Shown here piece after piece: positions 29,665 through 60,483 of a DNA stretch of 64,000 nt (position 1 is its first letter; each line of letters opens with the position of its first letter). The stretch is from Nostoc sp. LPT. GTDB lineage: Bacteria; Cyanobacteriota; Cyanobacteriia; Cyanobacteriales; Nostocaceae. The position numbers and the translations under genes were made by a program. The notes under the pieces were generated by a model. The model made no database searches. It saw only the letters and a program-made list of their open reading frames with translations, and was not told the origin of the DNA. The stretch is taken from assembly GCF_017115165.1 (NCBI RefSeq), contig NZ_JABXKF010000032.1, positions 1 through 64,000 on the forward strand. Reading direction: 5' to 3'.

Positions 29665-29699
29665 TGCTAATGACAAATGACCAATGACTAATGACTAAA
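29665..29699. repeat. Heptamer tandem array touching the rpsJ stop
   Basis: Units AATGACA/AATGACC/AATGACT (about four) lie immediately after the rpsJ stop codon on the minus strand, before the operon terminator. Same class as the arrays at clpS and pyrF. Confidence 0.8.
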
Positions 29700-30017
29700 T
29701 TAAAGTTTGACTTCAATATCTACACCCGATGGTAGATCCAATTTCATTAGGGCATCAATAGTTTTAGAAGAGGGCTGGTAAATGTCAATAATCCGGCGAT
29801 GAGTACGGGTTTCAAAGTGCTCCCGTGAATCTTTATCTACGTGGGGCGATCGCAGCACACAATAGATCCGGCGTTTTGTTGGTAAAGGAATTGGGCCTAT
29901 AGCTGTAGCGTTGGTGCGGTTAGCCGTGTCTACAATCTTCTCGCAAGATGTATCTAATAACCGCCTGTCAAAAGCTTGTAAGCGAATTCTAATCTTCTGC
30001 TGCTGTAGAGTTGTCAT
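29700..30017 (-). CDS. rpsJ: 30S ribosomal protein S10
   Basis: A 105-residue small-subunit protein, also the NusE transcription factor. The sequence [20 protein letters not shown], then [22 protein letters not shown] and [18 protein letters not shown], is typical S10. It is the last gene of rpsL-rpsG-fusA-tuf-rpsJ, the cyanobacterial arrangement of the str operon with S10 behind tuf. A 180-base gap with a strong hairpin separates it from tuf, so it may be expressed at a different level. Confidence 0.98.
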
Positions 30018-36198: not shown

Positions 36199-36505
36199 AG
36201 TTACCTCATTTGAAGACATAACAAACCGTTGGTACTCTTAATTATTGATAAAAAATCTGGCGCTATCTTGCAACCTTAAAAATCAGCAATTTTGTCGCAC
36301 TTTGATAAACATAGCAAAATCAAACCTTATGGTGTAAACCATCACTACTAAAACTCTGATGTCTACACCAAGTCTTCATCAAGCTAAATGACAGCTTGTT
36401 CTAAACTTTAAAAAATGACTAGGGATTGGGGATTGGTCATAGGGCATGGGGCATTGGTGATTAAGAGAATTCCTTATTCCTTATTCCCTATTCCCCATTC
36501 CCTGA

Positions 36506-39342: not shown

Positions 39343-42300
39343 ATGAATAATAAACCGATGAATCAAGACCAGGAAATCACAGCGGATATCAACTCAAGAG
39401 ATACCTATCAGGGGCAAAAGTGGTTAGTAGAGGAACGAGATGCCTGTGGTGTAGGTTTTATTGTTCATCGCCAGAATCATACCAGCCACAAAATTGTCGA
39501 AAAAGCCTTAGCTGCTTTAACCTGCTTAGAACATCGGGGAGGTTGTAGCGCTGATCGCGACTCTGGTGATGGTGCTGGAGTATTGACAGCAATCCCTTGG
39601 GAGTTGTTCCAACAAGACTTTGCCCAAAGGGGGAAGGAATTTCCATCCACCAATAATATAGCTGTGGGGATGATATTTCTCCCACAAGAACAGCAAGCTG
39701 CACAAAAAGCTAGGGTGACTGTTGAGCAAGTAGCTGCTGAAGAGAAATTAATTGTATTGGGTTGGCGAGTAGTGCCAGTGCAACCTGATTTGTTGGGGGT
39801 ACAAGCAAGAGAAAATCAACCCCAGATTGAACAAGTTTTGTTAGCTTCTGTTGACAAAAGCGGCGATGAATTGGAACGCCAATTGTACATTACCCGCCGC
39901 CGAATTAGTAAAGCTGCAACTAACATCTCAGAAGAATTTTATATCTGTTCGTTGTCAAGTCGCACAATTGTCTATAAAGGTATGGTGCGTTCCGCTGTCT
40001 TGGGCAGCTTTTACGACGATTTAAAAAATCCAGCTTACAAAAGCGCCTTTGCTGTTTATCACCGCCGCTTTAGTACCAATACCATGCCCAAGTGGCCCCT
40101 AGCCCAACCGATGCGGCTTTTGGGTCACAACGGTGAAATCAATACCTTATTGGGTAACATCAACTGGATGATGGCACGAGAAGCTAGTCTGAATCATCCT
40201 GTATGGGGTGATCGCATCGAGGAACTCAAGCCATTAGTTCATATTGATAACAGTGACTCAGCCACCCTAGACAACGTAGTGGAATTACTGGTGTGCTCTG
40301 GACGCAGCCCCTTGGAGGCTTTAATGATTATGGTTCCAGAGGCTTACCAAAATCAGCCTTCTTTACATAAATTTCCAGAAATTGTTGATTTCTACGAATA
40401 TTACAGTGGTTTGCAAGAAGCGTGGGACGGGCCAGCACTTTTAGTATTCAGCGATGGCAAAAAAGTTGGTGCAACTCTAGATCGTAATGGTTTAAGACCA
40501 GCTCGTTACGCGATCACCAAAGATGATTACATTGTTGTAGCTTCGGAAGCTGGTGTGGTGGACTTCCCAGAAGCCGATATTGTCGAGAAAGGTAGACTCG
40601 GCCCAGGGCAAATGATCGCCGTAGATTTAGAAAATCATGAAGTGCTGAAGAATTGGGATATAAAGGGGCGCATCGCCAAGCAGCACCCTTATGGAGAATG
40701 GCTGCAACAGCACCGTCAAGAATTAAAGTCATTGGTGAGCCAACGCGGTCTTCTCCCAAGGGGAGACGCCAAGGGCGATAGCGCAGCGTTAGCGAGTCAT
40801 CGAGCGTCTGGGGGTCTCCCCCATGAGCGATTGGCGAACCCTGAAGGGGTCATTAGTCATCCGTCATTAGCAAATGGCAATGGCAAAGGACAATTGACTA
40901 TTGACCAAGGACAATTGACTATTGACAAGCAAACCTTACTTCAGCGTCAAACTGCCTTTGGGTACACCACAGAAGATGTGGAAATGGTGATTCATCCAAT
41001 GGCGATCGCAGGTTCTGAGCCGACTTTCTGCATGGGTGATGATATTCCCTTAGCGGTGCTATCACAAAAGCCACACCTGCTTTATGACTATTTCAAACAG
41101 CGCTTTGCTCAGGTGACAAACCCGGCGATCGATCCCCTGCGGGAAAAGCTAGTAATGTCTCTGAAAGTTGAACTGGGTGAACGGGGTAACTTATTAGAAC
41201 CCAAGGCAGAATATGCTCGGAGATTGAAACTCGAATCGCCAGTGTTAACGGATGGTGAATTAGAGGCGATTAAGCTGTCAGGATTTGCGACGGCTGAGTT
41301 GTCAACCCTGTTTGCGATCGCCACCGGCCCAGAAGGATTAAAGTCCGCAGTCCAATCTTTACAAGTACAAGCAGCTGAATCAGTCCGCGCAGGTGCAAAG
41401 ATTTTAATATTAAGCGACCAGATCCCCTCAAGCTCTCTTGATGCAGGTATCAGCACGGAATACACCTACATTCCCCCCCTGTTAGCAGTGGGCGCTGTAC
41501 ATCACCATCTGATTCGTGAGGGGTTGCGAATGAAAACATCCCTGATTGTGAATACTGCTCAATGCTGGAGTACCCATCACTTTGCTTGTCTGATTGGCTA
41601 CGGTGCTGGTGCAGTTTGTCCGTATATGGCTTTAGATACGGTGCGTGATTGGTGGTCTGATCCCAAAACTCAAAAGTTAATGGGGGTACAAAAAATTCCC
41701 ACCCTCACCCTAGAACAAGCTTTAGGAAATTATCGCAAAGCAGTAGAGTCAGGTTTGCTCAAAATTCTCTCCAAGATGGGAATTTCTCTGCTCTCCAGCT
41801 ATCAAGCAGCCCAAATCTTTGAAGCGATTGGCATTGGTGGAGATTTAATCGAACTGGGATTTCGTGGTACGACTTCCCGCATCGGTGGTTTGAGTGTTAC
41901 CGAACTCGCTGATGAAGTACTTTCCTTCCACAGCAAAGCTTTCCCAGAACTGACGACCAATAAGTTAGAAAACCTGGGCTTTGTGCAATACCGTCCTAAC
42001 GGCGAGTACCACATGAATAGCCCAGAAATGGTTAAGGCGTTGCATAAAGCTCTAGATGGCAAAAACTACGACCACTACGAAGTTTACAAAAAGCACCTCC
42101 AAGGCAGACCAGTAACAGCCTTGCGGGACTTGCTAGACTTCCAAGGCGATCGCAGCCCAATTTCTCTAGAAGAAGTAGAGTCGGTAACTGAAATTGTCAA
42201 GCGCTTCTGCACAGGTGGCATGTCTTTGGGTGCTTTGTCAAGAGAAGCCCATGAAACTTTAGCAATCGCTATGAATCGCATTGGCGGGAAATCAAATTCT

Positions 42301-44157
42301 GGAGAAGGTGGCGAAGATCCAGTGCGCTACACAGTTCTAGATGATGTGGATGAGTCTGGTTACTCGCCAACCCTACCTCATTTAAAAGGATTGCAGAATG
42401 GCGATCGAGCTTATAGTGCCATTAAGCAAGTTGCATCGGGACGCTTTGGTGTGACGCCAGAGTACCTAGTTAACGCCAAACAAATTGAAATCAAAATTGC
42501 CCAAGGTGCCAAGCCTGGGGAAGGTGGACAACTGCCAGGGCCCAAAGTAAGCCAATACATTGCGATGTTAAGGCGCTCCAAGCCAGGTGTAACGCTGATA
42601 TCACCACCACCGCACCACGATATTTATTCGATTGAAGACCTAGCACAACTGATTTTTGATCTGCACCAAATAAATCCGAAAGCAAAGGTGTCGGTGAAGC
42701 TAGTTGCAGAAGTTGGCATTGGTACGATCGCTGCTGGTGTAGCCAAAGCAAACGCTGATATCATCCAGATTTCTGGTCATGATGGTGGTACAGGGGCATC
42801 ACCACTTAGTTCGATTAAGCACGCTGGTTCGCCGTGGGAACTCGGTTTAAGTGAAGTGCATCGCGTTTTGATGGAAAATAGTTTGCGCGATCGCGTGATT
42901 TTGCGGGTAGATGGCGGACTCAAGAGTGGCTGGGATGTGGTAATAGGTGCATTGATGGGCGGTGAAGAATTTGGTTTCGGCTCCATCGCCATGATTGCTG
43001 AAGGCTGTATCATGGCGCGAGTTTGCCACATGAATACCTGCCCTGTAGGTGTTGCTACTCAGAAAGAAGAACTCCGTAAGCGGTTTACAGGAATACCAGA
43101 ACAAGTTGTCAACTTCTTCTATTTCATCGCTGAAGAAGTGCGTAGTTTGTTAGCCCGACTTGGCTACCGTTCTTTATCAGAAATCATTGGACGTGCAGAT
43201 TTGTTAAAACTGCGCCAAGAGGCAAAACTCACCAAAACGCGATCGCTAAATCTGGACTGTTTACTTCAGCTACCAAATAGCAGAGACAATCGTAGCTGGT
43301 TGGTGCATGAAGAAGTTCACAGCAATGGCGTGGTTTTGGATGACAAGTTCCTTGCCGATGCCGAAATTCAGACTGCTATTAGAAATCAGTCTACTGTCAC
43401 CAAGACTTACCCAATTATCAATACTGACAGAACAGTAGGCACAAGATTAGCGGGAGCGATCGCTTCCCAGTACGGTGACAGTGGCTTTGAAGGACAAATT
43501 AATCTCAACTTTACAGGTAGTGTTGGACAAAGCTTTGGTGCTTTCAACCTCCCAGGCATAATTCTGAGCCTAGAAGGAGAAGCAAACGACTATGTAGGTA
43601 AAGGGATGCATGGTGGTGAAATCATCATTAAACCTCCAACTGATGCTACCTATAACGCATCACAAAACGTGATAGTTGGCAATACCTGCCTCTATGGTGC
43701 TACTGGTGGCATATTATTTGCCAACGGATTAGCAGGAGAGCGCTTTGCTGTGAGAAACTCCAAAGGCATTGCAGTGATTGAAGGCGCTGGGGATCACTGC
43801 TGTGAATACATGACAGGTGGTGTGATTGTTGTCCTTGGCAAAGTAGGACGTAACGTAGCAGCGGGAATGACTGGTGGACTGGCATACTTCTTGGATGAAG
43901 ACGACTTATTTCGTGAGTTAGTCAACCCAGAAATTGTCAAAATTCAGCGGGTGATTACCGAAGTAGGTGCAAAGCAACTGCAAGAATTAATCCAAACTCA
44001 TGCAGAACGCACTGGTTCACCAAAGGCAAAGAAAATTCTGCAAAATTGGCAAGAATTTTTGCCGAAATTCTGGCAGTTAGTTCCGCCTTCTGAAGCTGAT
44101 AGTCCAGAAGCCAATCCTGAAAAAACAACTGAGTTCAGTTTAGTAAGCAGTCATTAA
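39343..44157 (+). CDS. glsF: Ferredoxin-dependent glutamate synthase
   Basis: A 1604-residue GOGAT that makes two glutamates from glutamine and 2-oxoglutarate. After a 34-residue propeptide, C35 (DACGVGFIV) is the amidotransferase nucleophile. Central, FMN-binding synthase and C-terminal beta-helix domains follow ([35 protein letters not shown]). The 3Fe-4S cysteines are C1222, C1228 and C1233 (Cx5Cx4C). No NADPH-binding small-subunit gene is adjacent, which supports the ferredoxin form. About 60 residues (468-528) are an in-frame repeat insert not expected in the family. A terminator follows. Confidence 0.96.
40746..40930. repeat. In-frame palindromic repeat insert in glsF
   Basis: Contains TCTCCC/GGGAGA and GGGGG/CCCCC palindromes (40751-40830), and then two perfect 20-base units starting AAGGACAATTGACTATTG at 40886-40905 and 40907-40926 with a 21-base period. 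All are in the glsF frame and encode a Gly/Ser/Arg-rich stretch ([20 protein letters not shown]). Confidence 0.85.
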
Positions 44158-60160: not shown

Positions 60161-60483
60161 AGAGTTGTTTCCTTTTATTACAAAACAAGAAGTTCTTTGT
60201 ACAAAACGAAGCGGCTTGTACAGTTGTTTATTTGCATAACTAGGAAGTCATCATACTCTTGGGTGGGAACCGAGTAAAGTTTAAGTAAATAAAAGTTAAA
60301 GCTTCTCAACCAAAATTAGTGCTGAGTGCTGAGTAACGAGTGCTGAGTATAAGAATTGTTGTTGTAGGGTAGTAAAGAAGCAAGATTTTCTCTTTACTAT
60401 TCAGGACTTAGGACTTAGCACTCAGCACTCAGCACTCAGCACTCAGCACTCAGCACTCAGAAACTCAGCACTCAGCACTCTCA
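60161..60483. repeat. psaF-tsaD divergent gap with large heptamer inverted repeat
   Basis: Units GTGCTGAGT lie near 60319-60348, and about nine units of the complementary heptamer ACTCAGC/CAGCACT lie at 60415-60480, ending one base before the tsaD ATG region. The two blocks can pair into a long stem with a 70-base loop. The psaF promoter must lie in the first ~130 bases. Confidence 0.8.

Follow-up and report, generated by a model that had tools for sequence, protein, structure and literature searches.

The window analysed here, a stretch of 64,000 nucleotides from Nostoc sp. LPT, carries gltS, the gene of a ferredoxin-type glutamate synthase (39343-44157), on the forward strand, as are all features of this locus described below. 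The gene has 1604 codons with no internal stop, and its product displays the Pfam domains GATase_2 (residues 35-453), Glu_syn_central (534-831), Glu_synthase (890-1275) and GXGXG (1357-1540). At the joint between the amidotransferase (GATase_2) and the central (Glu_syn_central) domains lies a nested insert of 114 bp net, or 38 codons (40737-40850; protein S466-V503), delimited by the empty site of L035, L040 and other relatives. It splits an older in-frame, STRR-like heptamer linker, GTCATTG...CTATTGA (40728-40926), which is recognisable by its 7-base period and from the empty linkers of relatives. A first-pass annotation had described fold-back sequences and two perfect units at a 21-bp period as an in-frame insert of about 60 codons following the amidotransferase part. 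Fold-backs and units do lie inside the open GltS frame, and the location coincides with the domain boundary given by Pfam and with a region modelled as disordered. That an insert is present in frame holds, its size does not, and the 21-base repeats have to be removed from it: the second half of the supposed insert is ancestral linker, present in insert-free relatives.

Architecture of the insert and state of the enzyme

Three modules are nested in the order outer (15 bp), 27 bp, 30 bp, outer (42 bp). The outer hairpin element, with a total length of 57 bp, consists of a left part, GAGCCAACGCGGTCT (40737-40751), which is common to the gltS of L032 and L033 and has dispersed copies, and a right part, TGGGGGTCTCCCCCATGAGCGATTGGCGAACCCTGAAGGGGT (40809-40850), identified by comparison with the same two relatives. 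Enclosed by them are a middle element of 27 bp, TCTCCCAAGGGGAGACGCCAAGGGCGA (40752-40778), and an inner element of 30 bp, TAGCGCAGCGTTAGCGAGTCATCGAGCGTC (40779-40808). Outer and middle elements are found without the inner one in a purL copy (L016) and in similar copies, and L028 has most of the inner element without the middle one. All three modules (57, 27 and 30 bp) are multiples of three; gltS would have stayed open because of this and because the frame used is free of stops. A GT precedes the insert (40735-40736) and the insert itself finishes in GT (40849-40850); the pair may be a 2-bp target duplication.

Fold-backs occur at 40752-40766 (TCTCCCAAGGGGAGA) and 40810-40822 (GGGGGTCTCCCCC), both within the open GltS frame. 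The outer core folds clearly (z -3.5 and -2.8), the DNA of the 114-bp insert reaches z -2.3 (3/200 shuffles as stable), and RNA folding of 40740-40935 is moderate (z -2.4, 2/200 shuffles as stable). The 58 nt at 40752-40809, comprising the 27- and 30-bp modules and one further base, form no convincing hairpin when folded alone, since they show z -1.4 with 17/200 shuffles. Such fold-back potential could be taken as a sign that the insert is lost on the way to the finished enzyme, as an intron, as an intein or by ribosome bypass, which we consider very improbable: the insert is read through without a stop, both linker anchors are in one frame in 52/52 linkers of the genus, and Rfam showed nothing of note in 40400-41300, its one snoRNA match being sub-threshold (E 0.33). 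In addition, 38 residues are far too short for an intein. The insert loop is probably present in the mature GltS enzyme.

Where the window GltS has 62 residues (query 462-525), that of Synechocystis has 8 (chain 427-436). An AlphaFold2 model of residues 1-900, built with 40 aligned sequences, displayed a mean pLDDT of 79.7 and matched 1ofd best in the PDB (TMq 0.83). Residues 473-523 fall below a pLDDT of 50, with both sides folded, so that the insert region is modelled as disordered. Pairwise dN/dS against seven relatives was 0.071-0.142 on the N side of the insert and 0.065-0.090 on its C side, values which, being pairwise, average in time preceding the insertion. No second GOGAT was detected in the own genome when a 267-residue GltS segment was searched (8 matches, all of them gltS itself or the repeat; 30/30 candidates scored), and a separate GltS search agrees for the matches listed, with 10/18 candidates scored. 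An assembly artefact or a decaying pseudogene might be suspected, as the inner 57 bp are seen at the GltS site in a single assembly and the gltS of the congener G003 (L082) consists of several pieces and contains a stop, through decay or sequencing errors. The outer element is found in the gltS of two other assemblies, and the intact 1604 codons, the low dN/dS and the lack of a second GOGAT in these searches likewise make this explanation highly unlikely.

Unoccupied and partly occupied sites in related genomes

Of the 53 genus genomes, 52 yielded the GltS linker, the exception being the fragmentary G044. Counted from QHPYGEWL to the downstream anchor, it measures 83 codons in the window, 60 in L034, 63 in L032 and 73 in L033, while the remaining 48/52 span 38-52 codons, without the 38 residues, so that the conservation named in the first-pass annotation as speaking against its proposal was not seen; most of the other cyanobacterial linkers examined are shorter still. 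The empty site GTCATTGGTCATTAGTCATCC is found in L035 and L040, and DNA alignment reveals the same bases in the window, split by the 114 bp with GT on both sides. The gltS of L032 and L033 carries the outer hairpin alone: after subtraction of the 27 and 30 bp, the window insert is identical to that of L033 at 56/57 bases and to that of L032 at 54/57. The outer copies in gltS have GCCAA/TTGGC, where the common genus form is GCCAG/CTGGC; both stem sides are changed in the window, L032 and L033, and the three are therefore probably of one element lineage. In L034 this position holds an unrelated 45-bp insert, and the L033 linker contains another 24 bp (TACTTCGGCTGCGCTCAGTACAAG) downstream. The linker of Goleter apudmare (L166) has the residues HTLRQGEAP, resembling HTLREGEAP inserts of CobD loops.

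Several units with a 7-base period, as in STRR heptamer arrays, make up the GltS linker. Lag-7 identity was 0.43-0.72 in nine insert-free linkers tested, with 0.64 in L035, and at most 0.386 in 90-nt windows over the rest of the window gltS. The perfect 21-bp units (40886-40906 and 40907-40926; TRF score 82) lie inside this older linker and are one array variant, the left unit of L035 and L040 differing by few bases. For the L035 linker, which has no insert, folding reaches z -5.0. Judged by sequence, the GltS linker is an older, genus-wide, translated heptamer array. Two linker types among L035-L082 (the second being SSQSSDVNGNGHLAAENGNGH...) are mixed across the gene tree, a scatter that suggests linker exchange between lineages. 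Twelve heptamer peaks were seen in the window, 10 of which fall outside ORFs of at least 200 codons, and arrays of several types are located outside long ORFs at 60401-60480, 36420-36503 and 29669-29700. Among at least 30 heptamer arrays with long open frames across the genus, four loci were inspected, none of which shows the array inside a protein; at the heptamer locus L278 the frame continues, as judged by eye, into a ribosomal protein resembling L6.

In the gene tree, the window GltS stands beside L040, which has no insert, and L032 and L033, with the outer element, stand in another clade with moderate support (86/77). The near flanks of the window insert are at least as similar to L040 and do not follow the distribution of the element. 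This conflict could be explained by local recombination, by repeated loss or by separate insertions into a favoured heptamer site. For GltS, we infer insertion rather than loss.

Eighty named relatives, of which 57 linkers were readable, were compared by linker distance. It is 65-102 in 18 Nostocales, a class assigned by name, and 112 by the same measure in the window; the other 39 have 55-60, except one Thermoleophilia MAG with 90. All 18 Nostocales linkers are longer than usual cyanobacterial ones and often Asn-Gly-rich, so that a long joint may be useful there. The GltS loop could then be a selected functional addition, such as a regulatory or partner-binding linker, instead of tolerated repeat DNA. 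We regard this as unlikely, given that the length and sequence of the loop vary among related species, that unrelated repeats occupy the same spot and that the same residues occur in unrelated proteins.

Dispersed copies and their host genes

At E <= 10, 62 matches to the whole stretch noted in the first-pass annotation were found in the own genome, itself and many matches to the heptamer half included. The outer left arm alone, with up to three mismatches, was detected at 26 places and its reversed-pattern control at none, confirming the expectation that the nucleotide unit occurs elsewhere in the genome; it is dispersed in the genus as well. The outer 43-mer core (<=3 mismatches) is present in 33/53 genus genomes, with controls at 0 and 48 copies in G012. 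For a 32-mer core at <=2 mismatches, the order-wide figures are 15/120 genomes and 10/70 genera, the own included, with a maximum of 156 in G136. Of 29 other own-genome loci among the matches listed, 11 match the heptamer half only, and of the remaining 18 a single one is inside an ORF of 200 codons or more, which indicates by this rough test that most copies examined are outside genes. The intergenic copy L026 sits between the same heptamers as the GltS insert. The repeat CACTTGTACTGAGCG occurs at 22 places in the own genome with at most one mismatch. Partial matches were seen in 5 of 72,556 plasmid records.

The translated insert has matches in at least 46 of 53 genomes (E <= 0.01), mostly in short frames. 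Fifteen candidate loci were tested for an ORF over the element, and at seven of them the element is read in the GltS frame and has Pfam domains surrounding or adjoining it. Copies in the GltS frame are located in CobD of G009 (the G045 copy is an ortholog, 94% identical) and in a polyketide synthase and an NRPS adenylation region of G013. The element further lies in the linker of an HTH-PBP protein (G049), at the domain end of an MnmC2-like methyltransferase (G008), just upstream of the domain of a GH38 protein (G003) and within the kinase domain of a kinase hybrid (G035). Three reverse-frame matches (L233, L234 and L236), located within the first 62 codons of ORFs, were not counted; L235 has no ORF over the element, L128 and L130 show no Pfam family, and L125, in which the insert residues were read, gave no core match at the tested locus.

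Among the own-genome copies examined, the one inside such a long ORF is in purL (a partial protein, just under the curated cut-off), in opposite orientation to the GltS copy. Here too a series exists: L306 and L307 carry the outer element, L305 (the window strain) and L308 the outer element plus the 27-bp module, with one base different in L308. The first PurL match ends at residue 488-491, the element start, in 39/53 genomes, and the loop itself was read in four. CobD loops (L249-L274, codons ~131-170) were read in 26/53 genomes; all 26 keep the frame, with 34-79 codons. Their heptamers are of the GTCATTG type in 22 and of another type in four, several unrelated repeats are inserted, and four loops of 34 codons are plain heptamer arrays (lag-7 identity 0.57-0.61). 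From these readings, the CobD loop of the Nostoc genomes covered is hypervariable and largely translated heptamers. That the repeats are always in one frame was rejected: the purL copy is reversed, the reverse frame also yields long ORFs, so that the frame is not exclusive, and the frame in which CACTTGTACTGAGCG is read in the GltS of L034 is not the one used in the CobD of L254.

Proposed origin and relation to known repeats

The Nostoc GltS joint would be a hypervariable, unstructured segment made from translated intergenic heptamer repeats, which a small dispersed hairpin repeat entered at a heptamer boundary. A 27-bp and a 30-bp repeat would afterwards have nested in this outer hairpin, with the frame kept, which would have left the enzyme with 38 extra residues in a flexible loop that tolerates them, probably in a nearly neutral way. 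We hold this course of events to be very probable; the nested structure, the empty and partly filled sites, the dispersed copies, the open frame, the domain position and the low pairwise dN/dS all argue for it. The original proposal of a tolerated in-frame palindrome insertion is supported by this sequence evidence. The same hairpins, in frame in enzymes of related strains, suggest that small intergenic repeats keep adding protein segments. Going further, loops of Nostoc core enzymes may act as landing pads, translated heptamer arrays that attract small mobile hairpins, which enter one another at fixed positions; in that case the GltS, CobD and PurL loops would document the activity of the elements as it proceeds and would represent a general route from noncoding mobile DNA to new protein segments, an idea for which we see even chances of being right or wrong. 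Since empty, outer-only and nested states coexist at the same codon in related species, insertion order, target choice and protein tolerance are directly testable. Annotators and structure predictors should be aware that some Nostoc protein loops are translated repeats.

Small dispersed repeats (SDR) of Nostoc punctiforme were reportedly described by Elhai et al. in 2008 (Genome Res. 18:1484; cited in PMC3116915). SDR are hairpin repeats of 21-27 nt in heterocystous cyanobacteria, highly repeated, dispersed and recently mobile, and often embedded in heptamer arrays and nested in each other. Likewise, the gltS modules are embedded in a heptamer array and nested. The 27- and 30-bp modules are dispersed but form weak hairpins, and the outer core folds well (z -3.5) but is longer, at about 55 bp. 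Likened to SDR by description, the modules seen here differ in lying in frame within core enzymes and in showing partly occupied forms of a single coding site. STRR heptamers are short tandemly repeated repetitive sequences of heterocystous cyanobacteria, known also from rnpB and the trnL intron. Such 7-base arrays lie between genes in these genomes, whereas the array is translated as a linker in gltS and as a loop in cobD.

Among repeats with intragenic copies, GTAG/CGTC-tagged REPs lie within ORFs of several species, where clusters encode up to 43-82 residues, and REP families exist in Nostoc and Anabaena; the parts of that paper covered here name no intragenic cyanobacterial REP (PMC3733652). 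The gltS element is not of the GTAG-tagged kind, as its outer element starts with GAGCC and the stem closes at GGC before GAACCC. In literature surveyed by titles and abstract openings, with most subscription journals outside, neither in-frame repeats in cyanobacterial GltS nor a paper joining in-frame palindromes with nested Nostoc heptamer repeats was found.

Rickettsia palindromic elements, according to the parts of the sources covered, are dispersed palindromes of about 150 bp that insert into genes without loss of the frame and are tolerated there (PMC10969869; PMC3733652). The first-pass annotation had drawn this parallel, which stands in kind: the gltS repeat is dispersed, lies in frame in several unrelated genes and leaves them open. 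The likeness is one of behaviour, with elements of about 150 bp, as far as those sources go, set against cyanobacterial modules that measure 27-57 bp and are nested. In-frame palindromes in Rickettsia and tagged REPs in ORFs are already known from the same portions of these papers (PMC10969869; PMC3733652). Apparently new are the cyanobacterial core enzymes as hosts, the nested states found at a single codon in each of two genes and the heptamer arrays as possible landing pads. In-frame palindrome insertion, best known from Rickettsia, is extended here to cyanobacteria and to central enzymes of nitrogen, purine and cobalamin metabolism.
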